A stretch of 64,000 nucleotides of DNA, taken from Aphrocallistes beatrix. Taxonomy: Eukaryota; Porifera; Hexactinellida; Sceptrulophora; Aphrocallistidae. The stretch is from positions 558,001 through 622,000 of the forward strand of contig OY725500.1 in the NCBI GenBank assembly GCA_963281255.1, given 5' to 3'. This document shows, one piece after another, positions 1,902 to 62,854 of this stretch; the first letter of the stretch is position 1, and the number at the start of each line of letters is the position of its first letter. Both the position numbers and the translations under genes were made by a program. The notes beneath the pieces were generated by a model that saw only the letters and a list, made by a program, of their open reading frames with translations, was not told the origin of the DNA and did no database searches.

Positions 1902-2540
1902 GTAAATTTGGCTTTGAAGTTGAAGTTAGTGGAAGTTAGTCGTTCCATGACTAAAGAAGATCACCGCTATTTCCGCCTTCAAATGAAACGACAACTTTCT
2001 TTAACCAAAGATGACCTAACTTCTTTTGAGATATTTAACTTGTTAATTAGGAGGAAATTAATAACGTCTAAAGATGTTAAAATCATCTTGGATGCGTTTT
2101 TCAGAATGAAGCGTCATGGACTAATCTCCATCTTAGAACATGGACAAACTTCCCAAAGAAAAACGAATCAAGATAGGAAGGAAATAAAACCGACCTTTAA
2201 GCCTCAACCGAACCTAATTCAAGATACTAGCCAGACTTTAACTGATCCGTTTATCCTACATTTGTGTACAGATGACATTGCACCCAGTCAGCTCATGCAG
2301 TTAGGCGTTCAAGGCTTCAAACTCCCAATATTGGCTATCTCCAGAGCCCAATACGATTACAGATCACTGGATGCAAGCATTGCAGTGTTTACTCAATGGA
2401 AGAATTCCGCTCCTCTTCCTAGCAGCACGAGTTGGATTCATAATGGGACAATGCCCTCTTACACCATGAGGGGGTTGAAACGCGCTCTTGAAGACTCTCA
2501 GATGAACCACATCTTGATTAAGTATCCTAATATTAGGTGA
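1902..2540 (+). CDS. FADD-like: FADD-like DED-death-domain adaptor, copy 1 (main exon)
   Basis: This open exon codes 212 residues and begins directly after a CCTTTTAG acceptor. All four copies start this exon in phase 0, so a short upstream exon must supply the start codon; an ATG at 305-307 before GTAATA is only a possibility. Residues 1-75 fit a death effector domain: an amphipathic first helix, the pair FEIFNLLIRR, and a last helix FFRMKRHGLISIL. A polar linker of about 40 residues follows. The C-terminal 95 residues fit a death domain: FILHLC, LGVQGFKLP, the helix VFTQWKNS (FADD: LRIWKNT) and TMRGLKRALEDSQMN (FADD ends GALRSCQMN). FADD links death receptors to caspases through these two domains. 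This copy has the shortest linker of the four. Family assignment is good; the receptor or caspase partner is unknown. Confidence 0.72.
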   Translation, partial: VNLALKLKLVEVSRSMTKEDHRYFRLQMKRQLSLTKDDLTSFEIFNLLIRRKLITSKDVKIILDAFFRMKRHGLISILEHGQTSQRKTNQDRKEIKPTFKPQPNLIQDTSQTLTDPFILHLCTDDIAPSQLMQLGVQGFKLPILAISRAQYDYRSLDASIAVFTQWKNSAPLPSSTSWIHNGTMPSYTMRGLKRALEDSQMNHILIKYPNIR

Positions 2541-5105: not shown

Positions 5106-5137
<32 letters not shown>

Positions 5138-5138
5138 A
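5103..5138. repeat. (CAA)n microsatellite just after a stop codon
   Basis: Read on the minus strand, a run of about 11 CAA/AAC units starts immediately after the TAA stop of FADD-like copy 2. The same arrangement, much longer, follows copy 4 at 17163. Confidence 0.9.
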
Positions 5139-5870
5139 ATGCTGTTGGATTTTTTCAAGTTGCATATATGCATAGTTCATATTGCACTCCTTGAGAGCTT
5201 TTCTCAGTCCCCTCATGGTGCAAGGAGGCATTGTCCCATCTCGAATCCAACTCGTACTGACAGGAAGAAGAGCTGAGTTCTTCCATTGAGTAAACACATC
5301 AACACTCGCATCTAATGTAGATTTAGAATCGTACTGAGCTCGCTGGATAGCTACCATTGGTAGTTTAAATCCTTTGACACCTAAATTCATTAAATCATTT
5401 GGTCCTATCACCTCTGAACAAAAACTTAGAATGAACTGATCAGTTAATGGCTGATCTACGCTTTTATCTGGATTGGACTGACACGTCTTTTTACGGGGAG
5501 GGAGTGTCTGCTCGGTGGAGTAACGTTTTAGAGTCTGTGGGTGTCTGGACTCCGAACACGAGGACTTCATCTGTTCTGTACTCGCTTCACGTTGTGGCGT
5601 TTTGTCATTATTATTTTCATCTTGAAACAAGATAGTCATCAACTTGTCACTCCCCATATTTTGAAAAGCCCGCGAAATACGTTGAAGTTTTTCTTGCTCT
5701 TCCGTATTTTCCATGATTAGCATGTTAAAGAGAAATAATGGGTCTTGCACATCGTCTGTTAGGGAATGAAACTCTTGCCTCATTTGATGGTGGAATTGAG
5801 AACAATCTTCTTCATTCATTGCACGACTAACGGCCGCCAATTTCAATCTTAATTTCAATGCAGTCTTATC
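5136..5870 (-). CDS. FADD-like: FADD-like DED-death-domain adaptor, copy 2 (main exon)
   Basis: The exon opens after AATTTTCCTTTAG with the codons for DKTALKLRLKL, the same acceptor and opening residues as copy 4. It codes 244 residues. The N-terminal 80 residues form a DED-like fold (FLFNMLI, then FQNMGSDKLMTILF). A 55-residue Ser/Thr/Lys-rich linker holds a basic patch (PPRKKTCQ). The death domain follows: LTDQFILSFCSEVIG, LGVKGFKLPMVAIQRAQYD, VFTQWKNS and TMRGLRKALKECNMN. The usual Trp of death-domain helix 2 (FADD: DWRRLA) is replaced by NDLMNLG. It is the closest relative of copy 4 and lies in opposite orientation to the other three. The first coding exon was not identified with confidence. 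Confidence 0.72.
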
Positions 5871-8775: not shown

Positions 8776-9120
8776 TTAATAGATTGGTGTGTTTTGAAAA
8801 TTATACAATCTAAATCGTTGTTTTGCCCACTTGATGATGCACGAGAAAAGACTCAAAATCTTGATGTTGCCTATAACACATATACTATATAGCCAACTTC
8901 TAAGACCATGCCTAGCATAGAATAGCAACACTGAGTAGTTACGAACACTATCAGTTTCGTTGGGAAACAACACAGTAATTATGATTGCAATTGTTGCAGT
9001 TCTATAGTTGCTGTTCTCTAGATTTTCGATTTCAATAGACGTTACCATGCTAACTAGACTGATACTAATCGAAGGAAATAAATAATGTAAAAAACACATT
9101 AACATAAGAGTTTTTTTCAT
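8776..9120 (-). CDS. Hypothetical small membrane or secreted protein
   Basis: An ATG-started frame of 114 residues. The first 25 residues are hydrophobic enough for a signal peptide (LMLMCFLHYLFPSISISLV), a second hydrophobic segment follows (TATIAIIITVLF), and the tail is basic. I recognise no family. There are no flanking splice signals that stand out, and AT-rich DNA can give such a frame by chance, so this is weak. Confidence 0.18.
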   Translation of the reverse strand: MKKTLMLMCFLHYLFPSISISLVSMVTSIEIENLENSNYRTATIAIIITVLFPNETDSVRNYSVLLFYARHGLRSWLYSICVIGNIKILSLFSCIIKWAKQRFRLYNFQNTPIY

Positions 9121-9631
9121 GGTTGAATGACCAAAAAGGTCAAAAAAGATGCAAAAAAAGCAAATTTAAACTGTGTCAGTCAAAGAGAATTTATGGAGTC
9201 GAGAGCACAGAGTTAGCTACTTGTCTCTTTGGTCAACAATGGTTTGTTTATTGTAGTTTCTTATAAAAATGTATTGTATTTATATATTTAGGGAATCCCC
9301 ATAGTACATATTATAAAGAAAAAAATTGGGAGAGAAAAAATGTAAGAGAGCACTTAGAACCTGACAGAAGAACAATTAAAGATTTAAAAGTATGTTTAAC
9401 CTAAAACTATGGATTATATTGTATGCTATTAATTATTAGATCTCAAATGGATTATGCGTTAATGTTTAAAGAGAAAACATCATTGTCTGCAATGAAGAAT
9501 ATTTAATTGAATAATTTACTTCTAAAGACTTTTATATTTTAATGTCTGTTGTTTACATGTGAGGGTTGGTCAATTAATCTTCCAATTAATTTCTTCTTAA
9601 ATAAATGGTGAATATAGCCTAAATGTGATAA

Positions 9632-9965: not shown

Positions 9966-10715
9966 GGATTATTTAAACTCAGATTAAGACTGTTAGAGGT
10001 GTACCATTCAATGACTAAAGATGACAAGCGTTATTTCTATCATCAAATGAAGCGAAATCATTTCCAATCTTTGAGTAGTGAGGTGGATTCGTTAACCATA
10101 TTTAACATGTTAATCAAAAAGGAACTTATATCACCGAGGAAAGTCGATGTAATCTCGGAGGCGTTTTTTAGGATGAAACGTCTCAAATTGGTTTCAATCT
10201 TAAAAGGAGAAAATGAAAATAAACCTGAAAATGTTTTAGGGCGAGATAGGAAGACCACTGTCCCGAATATCAGGTATCAACAGCCTCCGAAACGTGCTTC
10301 CTCTGAGCAAACACTCAGTTCCTCCAAAATGGAGCGCCAATCCTATACTAATAAAAATGTTCATGTTGAGCGTCGATCTTCAAATCTCATTCAACGTTCT
10401 GATACGGATCAACCGTTAACTGATCAGTTCATTCTCAACTTTTGTTCGAATGAGTTAGGGCCTGATGAGCTAATGCATTTAGGTGTTAAAGGATTTAAAC
10501 TACCAATGGTAGCTATTCAGCGAGCGCAGTACGATTACAAGTTGACAGCAGAAGCGAGTATTGCTGTGTTTACTCAATGGAAGAACTCAGCTCCTCTTCC
10601 TGTCAGTACGAGTTGGATTCGAGATGGAACAATGCCTCCTTGCACCATGAGGGGACTGGCAAATGCTCTCTTAGAGTGCGGTCTTAACAACTCTCACAGG
10701 AAGTACTTCATGTGA
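9966..10715 (+). CDS. FADD-like: FADD-like DED-death-domain adaptor, copy 3 (main exon)
   Basis: The exon follows TTTCTTTTTAG and opens in phase 0 with GLFKLRLRLLEV; 249 residues to the stop. The first 80 residues have the best DED pattern of the four copies: FKLRLRLLEVYHSMTKDD, then FNMLIKKELISPRKVDVISE and FFRMKRLKLVSILK. The linker (about residues 85-155) is long and basic. The death domain (about 155-245) has FILNFCSNELGPDELMHLG, FKLPMVAIQRAQYD, ASIAVFTQWKNS and CTMRGLANALLECGLNN. FADD-type adaptors join receptors to DED caspases in the cytosol. Position 9605 has an ATG followed by GTGAAT that could be a one-codon first exon like the one proposed for copy 4; this is not established. Confidence 0.74.
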   Translation, partial: GLFKLRLRLLEVYHSMTKDDKRYFYHQMKRNHFQSLSSEVDSLTIFNMLIKKELISPRKVDVISEAFFRMKRLKLVSILKGENENKPENVLGRDRKTTVPNIRYQQPPKRASSEQTLSSSKMERQSYTNKNVHVERRSSNLIQRSDTDQPLTDQFILNFCSNELGPDELMHLGVKGFKLPMVAIQRAQYDYKLTAEASIAVFTQWKNSAPLPVSTSWIRDGTMPPCTMRGLANALLECGLNNSHRKYFM

Positions 10716-16426: not shown

Positions 16427-17162
16427 GATAAGACTGCATTATTTAAATTAAGATTGAAATTGGTGGCCGTTAGTCGTGCAATGAATGAAGAAGATGGTTC
16501 TCAATTCCACCAACAAATGAGGCAAGACTTCCATTCCCTAACAGACGATGTGCAAGACCCATTCTTTCTCTTCAACATACTAATCAAAGAAAATACGGAA
16601 GAGCAAGAAAAACTTCAACGTATCTCACGGTTTATTCGAAATATGAAGAATAACGAGTTGACGACTATCTTGTTTCAAGATGAAAATAATAACGATAAAA
16701 CGCCACAACATGAAGAGAGTACAGAACAGATGAAGTCCTCGTGTTCGGAGTCCAGACACCCACGGACTCTAAAACGTTCCTCCACTGAGCAGACACTCCC
16801 TCCCTGTAAAAAGACGTGCCAGTCCAATCCAGATAAAAGCGTAGATCAACCGTTAACTGATCAGTTCATTCTAAGTTTTTGTTCAGAGGTTATAGGACCT
16901 AGTGAGTTAATGAATTTAGGTGTCAAAGGATTTAAACTACCAATAGTAGCTATCCAGCGAGCTCAGTACGATTCCAAGCGTACAACAGATGCGAGTATTG
17001 ATGTGTTTACTCAATGGAAGAACTCAGCTCCTCTTCCTGTCAGTACGAGAAGGATTCGAGATGGGACAATGCCTCCTTACACCATGAGGGGACTGAGAAA
17101 AGCTCTCAAGGAGTGCGAAATGAACAATGCATTTATGCAACTTGAAAAAATCCAACAGTATT

Positions 17163-17164
<2 letters not shown>
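16427..17164 (+). CDS. FADD-like: FADD-like DED-death-domain adaptor, copy 4 (main exon)
   Basis: The exon opens after AATTTTCCTTTAG with DKTALFKLRLKL and codes 245 residues. DED region about 1-80 (FLFNILIKE, then FIRNMKNNELTTILF); polar linker about 85-150 with TEQTLPPCKKTC; death domain about 150-240 with FILSFCSEVIG, LGVKGFKLPIVAIQ, VFTQWKNS and TMRGLRKALKECEMN. The protein is about 85% identical to copy 2 by eye, including the linker, and the acceptor region is nearly the same, so the two are a recent inverted duplication. The SW of the usual STSWI motif is RR here. A long (CAA)n run starts immediately after the stop. Confidence 0.74.
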
Positions 17165-17258
<94 letters not shown>

Positions 17259-17290
17259 CAACAACAACAATCAACAACAATAACAATAAC
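17163..17290 (+). repeat. Long (CAA)n microsatellite in the 3' UTR of FADD-like copy 4
   Basis: About 32 uninterrupted AAC units are followed by interrupted CAATCAACAACAA and AATAAC units. The run begins with the stop codon region itself (TATTAACAACAAC). In the same frame, read-through would give polyasparagine. Confidence 0.95.
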
Positions 17291-17449
17291 ATGTAATGGT
17301 AAGAATCGAAGTTGAAAGTTAATAATAGAGAGAACTGTCTCCACCACTTTGCAATGGTTGTACATTTAACTTTGTTTACATGTATTGATGTTCATACGAT
17401 ATGTTTATTAATACTAACTAATTACGACATAAATATTATTTTAATCGAA

Positions 17450-17662
17450 TCATCCCTTCTTCTGTTTTTCTAATACAAATCTAATCATATATTCTCTTCT
17501 AAATCTGTTGATCTTATTTTCCATCTCCACGTATTCAGGCCCAAGTTCTATCTCCAGGTTCGGCTTGTAATAATTGTGCACGAGAGAACCTCCGAAGAAT
17601 CCCCAAAATAAGGAACTACCCAAGAAGAAGATGTACTTGCTAACTGACATTCCCATCGGCAT
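17450..17662 (-). CDS. UQCC6: Complex III assembly factor UQCC6 (Brawnin)
   Basis: The 70-residue frame starts MPMGMSVSKYIFFLG and ends at TGA. It matches Brawnin (C12orf73): MPxGxxxSxY start, one hydrophobic helix (FLGSSLFWGFFGGSLV), then VHNYYKPNLEIE against human VHRYYRPDLTIP. Known Brawnin is a mitochondrial inner-membrane microprotein needed for respiratory complex III assembly. The first ATG (17662-17660) lies inside the last codons of the upstream UQCC5 frame; the two frames overlap by 23 nt in different phases. ATGs at 17656 and 17650 are in the same frame. No splice acceptor is seen between them, so both are probably on one mRNA. Confidence 0.8.
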   Translation of the reverse strand: MPMGMSVSKYIFFLGSSLFWGFFGGSLVHNYYKPNLEIELGPEYVEMENKINRFRREYMIRFVLEKQKKG

Positions 17663-17879
17663 CTTTGTTGTTAGGAAAGAGAGCTGTATATGTTTCGGTG
17701 ATCTTTTGTTTCCTTCGCTCGGTTTCTTTTCGCAGTAAAGTTTCGTAAAATGTTTCTTTGCCAATGCGAGCTTTGATCATAAACAATTCAACTCCAACTC
17801 CGAGACAAAATGACAAAATCCAAACTTTTACGAGGCCAATGCTCATCACCTTCCAATCCAGTTGGAATAAATCCTTTCG
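17640..17879 (-). CDS. UQCC5: Complex III assembly factor UQCC5 (SMIM4), last exon
   Basis: After a CTTTTCAG acceptor the exon reads RKDLFQLDWKVMSIG and then VGVELFMIKARIGKETFYE. Human SMIM4/UQCC5 has GTMEWIMIKVRVGQETFYD, so the match is direct. One hydrophobic helix (GLVKVWILSFCLGVGVELF) precedes it, and a basic, Lys/Arg-rich tail follows, ending at TAG (17642-17640). UQCC5 works in the inner mitochondrial membrane with UQCC6 in complex III assembly. A candidate first exon is ATGGATTCGGGG at 18016-18005 before GTATAT; it keeps the phase and gives MDSG-RKDLF, about 83 residues in all (human 70). The 3' end overlaps the start of UQCC6. Confidence 0.78.
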   Translation of the reverse strand, partial: RKDLFQLDWKVMSIGLVKVWILSFCLGVGVELFMIKARIGKETFYETLLRKETERRKQKITETYTALFPNNKDADGNVS

Positions 17880-18016
17880 CTGAAAAGCTAAATATAAAAT
17901 TTAAATAAATTAATGTTTGAATTAGAAATTGATGATAAAATTGAAGAATAGGAAATTCATGACAAAACAAGGAAATTTAGTTTAAAGTTTATAGATTTAT
18001 ATACCCCCGAATCCAT

Positions 18017-18333
18017 GCTAATATGTTCTCAGGGGTTTACAATCTGGGTGAGGTGCTAAACCTACTGATAGTTGCTGACTGTGGTGTATGCGGCATGTGT
18101 ATATGCATATGATAGTGTTACAGAGAAAAACTCGGCTAACAGTAGGCAAGAAAGATAGCACCTAACTTTACCTTAAACGAGATTACTTAAAAAAGTGTAA
18201 CTATGCAGTTTTTGTGTATCAATTTCAAATCTTCTTATATTCAAATTGTACCACACTCAAGGAGAATTATACTCCAGTATACTCCAGTTCAATACACAAT
18301 TCCAACTATTCTAAAATCATTCCGATCCATCCA
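18017..18333. promoter_or_regulatory. Possible bidirectional promoter between UQCC5/6 and DHCR24
   Basis: The two transcription units point away from each other with 317 bp between the proposed UQCC5 start and the DHCR24 ATG. If the UQCC5 first exon lies elsewhere the gap changes. There is no clear TATA box; this is inferred from layout. Confidence 0.3.
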
Positions 18334-19878
18334 ATGCTCTTTACCCTATTGCCAATACTAATAGGGACAGGGCTCCTCTTCTATTTCAAGTTCGAGTACA
18401 TTTTGACACACCAAAGGTGGGTGTTCGTGTGCTTGTTCCTACTCCCACTCTCTTTCCTCTACGACTTGTACTTCCGTCTCCGTAACACCCTGGTCCTCTA
18501 TTCACACAGCGCACCAGCCAGCCATGGCAAGCGTGTCAGGAAGATACAGGACTGCGTCGAGGAATGGAAACGTAGTGGCGATGGGCGAAAGATGTGCACG
18601 GCCCGTCCTTCCTTCCTCACCGTATCTATGAAATACGGCGCCTACAAAGATACGCATTGGAAGGTCCCCATCAACCTGCATGACATCCTGGAAATAAATC
18701 TGGAAAAGAGGGTTTGTAGGGTGGAACCTTTAGTGACCATGGGACAGATCTCAGCTTCGCTTATTCCTAAAGGGTGGACAATCCCCATTCTCCCTGAATT
18801 GGACGACTTGACTGTTGGAGGATTGATCATGGGTGTCGGTATAGAGACTTCTTCTCACTTATACGGACTGTTCCAGCACAATTGTACCTCTTACGACATG
18901 GTACTTGCCGATGGAAGCTTAGTGCATTGCAGTATCGACGAGAATACGGAACTGTTCTATGCTATACCCTGGTCGTACGGGACACTAGGGTTCCTAGTCG
19001 CCGTAGAGATTAAAATGATCCCAGCTAAACCCTATGTGAAGCTGAACTATTTCCCGTTCCACTCACAGGAAAAGTTGGTTGAGAAGTTTGGTGAAGAATC
19101 ACGAAATTCAGACAACGATTTCGTTGAAGGGATTTTACTGACTAAAACGACGGGCGTTGTGATGACAGGGAATTTCAGTGACGCTCCTAAAGGAGGAGAG
19201 GGTACCGTGAACTGTATAGGAAAGTTCTGGAAACCTTGGTTCTACACGCATGTGAATTCTTTCCTAAAAGCAGGCGTTGCTACGGAGTATATTCCTCTCA
19301 GAGATTATTTCCACCGACATTCGAGGAGTATTTTCTGGGAGATGCGAGACATAATTCCATTCGGGAACCATCCTATTTTTAGATACACGTGTGGGTGGAT
19401 GGTACCGCCTAAAATATCTTTCTTAAAACTGACACAGACAAACACAACAAAGCGACTTTACGAGCAAAAGCATGTCACCCAAGATCTCCTACTGCCAATG
19501 GACTCGCTCGCTGAAACGCTACAAGTATTCGATACAGAATTCAGTGTCTATCCTCTTTGGTTATGTCCGTTTAAACTCCCAAATAATCCCGGTTTAGTTC
19601 ACCCAAAGGAAGATTCCACAGTTATGTATGTGGATGTCGGGGCTTATGGCGTTCCTAAAGTGGATAACTTTGATGCAAATTCGTCTCTAAGGAATGTGGA
19701 GAAGTTTACTATCAGAGTGAATGGATTCCAAATGCTCTATGCCGATACGAGAATGTCTCGAGCTGAATTCCGTGAGATGTTCGATCACGAACTCTACGAT
19801 AGAAAGCGGAGAGAATTAGGGTGTGAAGAGGCGTTCCCTGACATTTATGATAAAGTCGGAAAACACGCTTGGAAATAG
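18334..19878 (+). CDS. DHCR24: Delta(24)-sterol reductase (DHCR24, seladin-1)
   Basis: An intronless frame of 514 residues from the first ATG that fits the family (MLFTLLPILIG); human DHCR24 has 516. The N-terminus holds membrane helices (about 1-50). An FAD-binding PCMH-type domain follows (about 75-225) with ARPSFLTVSMKYGAYK, PLVTMGQIS, PILPELDDLTVGGLIMGVGI and PWSYGTLGFLVA. The C-terminal half has the family blocks FWKPWFYTHV, EYIPLRDYFHRHSRSIFWE, PLWLCPFKLP and MYVDVGAYG. The enzyme reduces the C24 double bond of sterol intermediates at the endoplasmic reticulum, using FAD and NADPH. All family blocks appear intact, so it should be active. Confidence 0.97.
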   Translation: MLFTLLPILIGTGLLFYFKFEYILTHQRWVFVCLFLLPLSFLYDLYFRLRNTLVLYSHSAPASHGKRVRKIQDCVEEWKRSGDGRKMCTARPSFLTVSMKYGAYKDTHWKVPINLHDILEINLEKRVCRVEPLVTMGQISASLIPKGWTIPILPELDDLTVGGLIMGVGIETSSHLYGLFQHNCTSYDMVLADGSLVHCSIDENTELFYAIPWSYGTLGFLVAVEIKMIPAKPYVKLNYFPFHSQEKLVEKFGEESRNSDNDFVEGILLTKTTGVVMTGNFSDAPKGGEGTVNCIGKFWKPWFYTHVNSFLKAGVATEYIPLRDYFHRHSRSIFWEMRDIIPFGNHPIFRYTCGWMVPPKISFLKLTQTNTTKRLYEQKHVTQDLLLPMDSLAETLQVFDTEFSVYPLWLCPFKLPNNPGLVHPKEDSTVMYVDVGAYGVPKVDNFDANSSLRNVEKFTIRVNGFQMLYADTRMSRAEFREMFDHELYDRKRRELGCEEAFPDIYDKVGKHAWK

Positions 19879-62436: not shown

Positions 62437-62569
62437 TTTGAATTTTATTTAGCAAATTAACTAGCAGTTGTATTTATTCATTCATTTAGTTTCAATATGT
62501 ATACGCAACTTTTAGGTGTTGATTTACTTTAGGAAATATTCTACAGGTCTGGAGGAAGATATCAAAGTA

Positions 62570-62739
62570 CAATCGACTCCACTTAATAGGGTCACTGTTT
62601 ATCGGGTCACTTTTGGCAGGACCGGAATAGTTCTCACACACAGAAGCTAATACAAAATGGTTTCGGTTAATAGGGTTCTCTGCTTAATCGGGGCAAAATG
62701 TCCTCTGACCGATGTGACCCTATTAAACGGAGTCGACTG
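62570..62739. mobile_element. TA-flanked MITE, CAGTCGACTCCGCTTAATAGG family, copy 4
   Basis: Ends CAATCGACTCCACTTAATAG and CTATTAAACGGAGTCGACTG between TA dinucleotides. It is in inverse orientation to copies 1-3 by its internal ACACAGAAGCTAATACAAAA block. It lies 115 bp upstream of the ATP5PD start. Confidence 0.85.
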
Positions 62740-62854
62740 TATTTATGCACACACTTCATTCAGCCATGATAATTATAAGTTCATATTCTCGAGTATTTTA
62801 ATGTCTATATTTTAAACATAATTCTATAAATAGTGTCAGTTCCCGTCTTAACGA

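Follow-up and report, generated by a model that had tools for sequence, protein, structure and literature searches.

The 64,000-nt stretch of contig OY725500.1 of the glass sponge Aphrocallistes beatrix analysed here (the window) carries on its minus strand two small frames, UQCC5/SMIM4 (17640-17846) and UQCC6/Brawnin (17450-17662), which share 23 nt. With a probability of roughly 60%, the pair is read as the glass-sponge orthologue of Drosophila sloth1-sloth2, in which one mRNA bears both frames and UQCC6 is reached by leaky scanning. A single short mRNA would bear UQCC5 and then UQCC6, its 5' end lying upstream of 17879 and its poly(A) site past 17409. Ribosomes that miss the UQCC5 AUG at 17846 would scan on and initiate at the first in a cluster of three UQCC6 AUGs, 184 nt farther on and in the +1 frame. 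With the UQCC6 start preceding the UQCC5 stop, both frames would compete for each ribosome, thereby setting the ratio of the two partners. Judged by homology, in function as in membrane topology, both products would be membrane microproteins acting together in early complex III assembly. The frames, family matches, overlap, copy numbers and the layout of AUGs and poly(A) signals are computed; we infer the shared mRNA and the leaky scanning.

The UQCC5 frame, the counterpart of fly Sloth1, runs from ATG 17846 to TAG 17642-17640 and translates into 68 amino acids, matching Pfam PF15114 (UPF0640) with E 9e-8 and 32.4 bits (cut-off 27) over profile positions 26-64 of 67. UPF0640 is presumably the UQCC5/SMIM4 family, with which protein size and pairing agree. 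A single hydrophobic segment lies near the N-terminus, its best 19-mer, at residue 6, averaging 1.96 on the Kyte-Doolittle scale. The UQCC6 frame, the counterpart of Sloth2, extends from ATG 17662 to TGA 17452-17450 and encodes 70 amino acids, matching Pfam PF14990 (DUF4516) with E 1.1e-11 and 44.6 bits (cut-off 27). Profile positions 1-39 of 46 align to residues 1-39, profile position 1 falling on the initiator methionine at 17662. We take DUF4516 to be the UQCC6/Brawnin/C12orf73 family, again in agreement with size and pairing. Its hydrophobic segment reaches 1.47 in the best 19-mer, at residue 10, and no window exceeds the usual threshold of 1.6. Both identities, assigned in an earlier sequence-only reading, hold with these matches over the Pfam cut-offs.

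When the whole genome (100,537,919 bases in 28 contigs, E <= 0.001) was searched with each protein and its family, UQCC5 was found once, at 17640..17846, and UQCC6 once, at 17450..17662. With a single genomic match per family, and these two matches adjacent on the same strand, UQCC5 first, the pairing is more than chance; no separate or unlinked copy was found that would explain it. A PDB sequence search with UQCC5 gave zero matches (E up to 1), and one with UQCC6 gave nothing convincing, only four weak matches (E 0.63-0.81). UQCC6 was also scanned against a collection of viral contigs (6 pattern-matching stretches, 0 relatives) and one of prokaryote genome contigs (59 stretches, 0 relatives); as these hold viruses and prokaryotes, the lack of eukaryote matches there says little. 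Fly Sloth1 and Sloth2 are reported to be 27% similar, and paralogy has been proposed for them (PMC9681215), but this relationship is not visible in the sponge pair, for which BLASTP returned zero local alignments between UQCC5 and UQCC6 at E <= 100.

The overlap spans 17640-17662, with UQCC6 in the +1 frame relative to UQCC5. Through it the UQCC5 C-terminus reads ..DADGNVS-stop while the UQCC6 N-terminus reads MPMGMSV.., and three in-frame UQCC6 AUGs, at 17662, 17656 and 17650, lie 20, 14 and 8 nt ahead of the UQCC5 stop. The coordinates thereby confirm the earlier description of two frames sharing 23 nt in different phases and place them on the minus strand, which had been left unstated. The last 20 UQCC5 codons, which reach into UQCC6, fall outside the part matched by PF15114, and 32% of minus-strand positions in the window are open for 20 codons, so the overlap may be incidental; an overlap as such, compared with a short gap, needs no selection. 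A one-base assembly error in the linker could also have created it from a true short gap or fusion. One alternative reading of the linker ends UQCC5 at 17671, 8 nt ahead of the UQCC6 ATG, another runs on into UQCC6, and four A in a row stand at the end of the UQCC5 region covered by the profile. Neither matched domain is broken, though, and past the A run the linker has no homopolymer longer than 3; nothing suggests such an error, which is considered highly improbable.

Splice sites around the pair were scored with a generic PWM, not organism-specific, and ranked against the 3673 AGs and 3573 GTs of the window's minus strand. On this scale a strong candidate acceptor AG, for cis-splicing or an SL, is found at 17880-17881 (99.7th percentile, score 6.8), with the exon starting from 17879. 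The best candidate donor GT, TTTAAG/gtaaagtt at 18170-18171 (99.0th percentile), would give a non-coding 5' exon, in which case coding would begin with the AUG at 17846. A weaker alternative GT at 18004-18003 (86.3rd percentile) would instead add a coding exon, MDSG, from an ATG at 18016 in strong context (ATTAGCATGG). The UQCC5 start is uncertain, lying at 17846 or possibly being extended upstream through such a 5' exon. At the other end, the only AATAAA on the minus strand of 17380-18360 is found downstream of UQCC6 at 17404-17409, and the only ATTAAA of the same interval, at 17445, also falls past the UQCC6 stop, neither hexamer occurring inside the pair. Because poly(A) signals appear only after UQCC6, a UQCC5 transcript that ends in the conventional way would carry UQCC6 too. 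A shared mRNA is likely. Rfam gave zero matches in the window at gathering thresholds.

A rival reading is that UQCC6 is expressed from an mRNA of its own, produced by cis-splicing (for example from donor 18171 to acceptor 17662), by SL trans-splicing directly ahead of its ATG, or from an internal promoter, in which case the overlap would have no translational meaning. The sequence-only reading had stated that no splice acceptor lies between the two frames. An AG does end exactly ahead of the UQCC6 ATG (AAAG/ATG, preceded by CTCTCTTTCCTAAC) and could act as a cis or SL acceptor, which weakens that statement as well as the case for leaky scanning; it is a mediocre site, only at the 86.9th percentile, and to this extent the statement stands. 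Its score of 1.0 compares with 6.8 for the acceptor of the 17879 exon, and positions -3 to -10 are mostly A. For A. vastus, also a glass sponge, a trans-spliced leader has been described (PMC10282587), and PMC7986045 lists hexactinellids among the groups with SL trans-splicing, but without reported operons; against this, no more than 4% of the long reads from A. vastus had a predicted leader (PMC10282587), and the fly pair remains on a single mRNA (PMC9681215). A separate UQCC6 mRNA is regarded as unlikely.

For a shared mRNA, leaky scanning is the simplest reading of how UQCC6 would be translated. From the start at 17846 to that at 17662 the sequence is free of out-of-frame AUGs, and the one further in-frame AUG, at 17780, has a poor context (TTTATGA). 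Out-of-frame AUGs were also absent in 37% and 26% of sequences under two kinds of synonymous randomisation, so their absence fits scanning but is not significant and is not used as proof of leaky scanning. The start contexts are G at -3 and A at +4 for UQCC5 (17846, the true UQCC5 start being uncertain) compared with A at -3 and C at +4 for the first UQCC6 AUG (17662). The A at -3 of UQCC6 counts in favour of scanning. The UQCC5 context is not weak, which speaks against leakiness, and the coding exon from 18016, if used, would present a strong first AUG and hinder it further.

Reinitiation had been offered among the possible mechanisms. In its ordinary forward form it fares poorly: once UQCC5 has stopped, the first AUG to follow encodes residue 47 of UQCC6, beyond the hydrophobic segment, so that forward reinitiation could not yield intact UQCC6. 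The 23-nt overlap and the AUG anatomy together disfavour it as a source of the full protein. In a backward form, known as coupled termination-reinitiation, a ribosome that finishes UQCC5 at 17640 would slip back by 8 to 20 nt and begin again at one of the three UQCC6 AUGs. Several AUGs of the second frame do precede the stop of the first, and two Asp codons (GAT overlapping ATG) occur in the UQCC5 tail, a loose resemblance to five human mRNAs described with Asp-rich first-frame tails and repeated GAUGAU (PMC3923131). The two Asp in the last 11 UQCC5 residues form no run, though, and the overlap holds no GATGAT. Local RNA structure, too, is absent at the overlap by a shuffle test: the segment 17600-17700 was less structured than its shuffles (z +1.89, 199 of 200 shuffles folding at least as well), and 17590-17662 was unremarkable (z +0.38, 121 of 200). 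In fly reporters, moreover, translation of sloth1 represses sloth2 rather than feeding it (PMC9681215). Backward reinitiation is therefore judged quite unlikely.

Since the overlap RNA is no more folded than shuffled sequence, an IRES or a frameshift structure finds no support either. A programmed +1 frameshift would produce a UQCC5-UQCC6 fusion, and the UQCC6 frame is indeed open upstream to 17776, so that the two would be joined by a +1 shift at any point within 17640-17776. The UQCC6 profile match starts exactly at its own initiator methionine, however, no RNA structure accompanies the overlap, and the fly and human proteins are separate; a fusion is hardly credible. Leaky scanning, the preferred reading, also affects the wording to be used for the locus. 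It had been described as a translational coupling of functional partners, and the partnership is well founded: human SMIM4 and C12ORF73 are reported to act in early complex III assembly and to be interdependent in level (PMC8719881), as the earlier reading had said of mammals. The term coupling is less than ideal, because under leaky scanning the two are competing ORFs; the fly reporters are described as fitting leaky scanning, with sloth1 translation lowering that of the downstream ORF (PMC9681215).

The neighbourhood of the pair contains several further features. Upstream of it, 18334-19878 on the plus strand holds a single-exon FAD-binding gene (Pfam FAD_binding_4) that resembles DHCR24 by eye, its PDB matches being other FAD oxidases only; it is divergent from the UQCC5-UQCC6 pair, and a promoter common to both could lie in the short interval between them. 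On the other side, a long CAA repeat (17165-17290) lies ahead of the UQCC6 3' end, directly after the stop of the last of four related single frames at 1902-2540 (plus strand), 5136-5870 (minus), 9966-10715 (plus) and 16427-17164 (plus). Compared with the 16427 copy, 5136-5870 matches at 86%, 9966-10715 at 54%, and 1902-2540, in two segments, at 55% and 36%. Pfam DED was matched weakly, below its curated cut-off, by the 1902 frame (E 2e-4) and the 9966 frame (E 1.4e-5) and left the 5136 and 16427 frames unmatched, while the common C-terminus of the four resembles a death domain by eye. They are possibly a FADD-like tandem family, with more distant relatives on contig C9. Farther away, at 62560-62745, near-inverted ends seen by eye (..cgactccacttaatagggtcac.. 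and ..gaccctattaaacggagtcgactg..) resemble a small inverted-repeat transposon remnant.

One contig of the same assembly, C28 (17,996 bp), is the mitochondrial genome, with a cox1 that contains internal TGA codons and with an atp9-like frame and other genes named by eye. Compared with bovine COX1, all 16 AGR codons of cox1 that were compared align to residues other than Arg (5 of them to Ser), while CGN codons stand opposite Arg in 7 of 9 cases. Among the 10 frames examined, which do not include nad2, nad6 and cox3, a single TGG turns up, in nad3. Codon 140 of cox3 is a TGG at which the reading frame is broken, and another TGG follows 40 nt on in the next frame; the gene (8806-9590) is split over three frames with TGG near the breaks and looks as if it held two +1 frameshift sites. 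The AT skew is 0.17 and the GC skew -0.29. For A. vastus mtDNA, PMC2267718 gives skews of 0.18 and -0.28, rare UGG, a cox3 +1 frameshift at UGG at position 140, reassignment of AGR to Ser in hexactinellids, and retention of atp9 with loss of atp8. The two genomes are alike in the atp9-like frame, the non-Arg reading of AGR, the rarity of TGG and the base skews described there, traits that almost certainly mark the host as a glass sponge, and differ in cox3, where two frameshift sites apparently exist in the present contig and one is reported for A. vastus (PMC2267718).

The central idea of a bicistronic UQCC5-UQCC6 gene is already published in other lineages, and what is added here is a sponge member with overlapping frames. 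Bosch (2022, eLife, PMC9681215) showed that Drosophila sloth1 and sloth2 (CG32736-CG42308), the orthologues of SMIM4 and C12orf73, are carried on one bicistronic mRNA, that the two proteins co-precipitate, and that their ratio matters. The sponge pair has the same order and strand, different frames and a near-zero spacer; it differs in that a 5-nt gap (GCAAA) separates the fly frames whereas 23 nt are shared here, and in length, with 79 and 61 amino acids for fly Sloth1 and Sloth2 versus 68 and 70 in the sponge (PMC9681215). The 23-nt overlap may be a small variant of this known arrangement; as far as search listings show, an overlap in this pair is not known to have been described. Because the overlap excludes simple forward reinitiation as the source of intact UQCC6, the sponge orthologue would allow leaky scanning to be told cleanly from backward reinitiation in a natural pair of partner proteins. 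Overlaps also occur outside the family. At some loci of green-algal bicistronic nuclear mRNAs the stop codon of the first ORF overlaps the start codon of the second, although their proteins are unrelated, and in that preprint (bioRxiv 2024, PMC11291117) leaky scanning is backed by mutants tested in vivo at different loci, TOM22 and OST4. Human mRNAs of the CASQ2 type share with the sponge several second-ORF AUGs ahead of the first stop and Asp codons in the overlap, yet the CASQ2 overlap is Asp-rich and 81 nt long, against 23 nt with two Asp here (PMC3923131).

Within the family, the separateness of the mammalian genes had made the sponge arrangement seem surprising. The separation itself is correct, since in jawed vertebrates the genes are reported on different chromosomes, in human Chr 3 (SMIM4) and Chr 12 (C12orf73), unlike the linked sponge pair; the surprise was overstated, the pair being already bicistronic in Drosophila (PMC9681215). 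As in the sponge, the SMIM4 and C12orf73 orthologues are linked in a similar architecture in the choanoflagellate Salpingoeca urceolata, the sea squirt Ciona intestinalis and lamprey, where the figure legend of that paper describes them as candidate bicistronic or adjacent separate transcripts (PMC9681215). Tentatively, and with more doubt than confidence, the overlap might be conserved and used among glass sponges, the ribosome making either partner, or restarting backwards, and so fixing their ratio, with the linked gene ancestral to animals and choanoflagellates and split towards jawed vertebrates. The pair described here adds a sponge to the lineages with the bicistronic SMIM4-Brawnin arrangement; taken with the pairs of choanoflagellate, fly, tunicate and lamprey, it supports the view that the linked gene is ancestral in animals.
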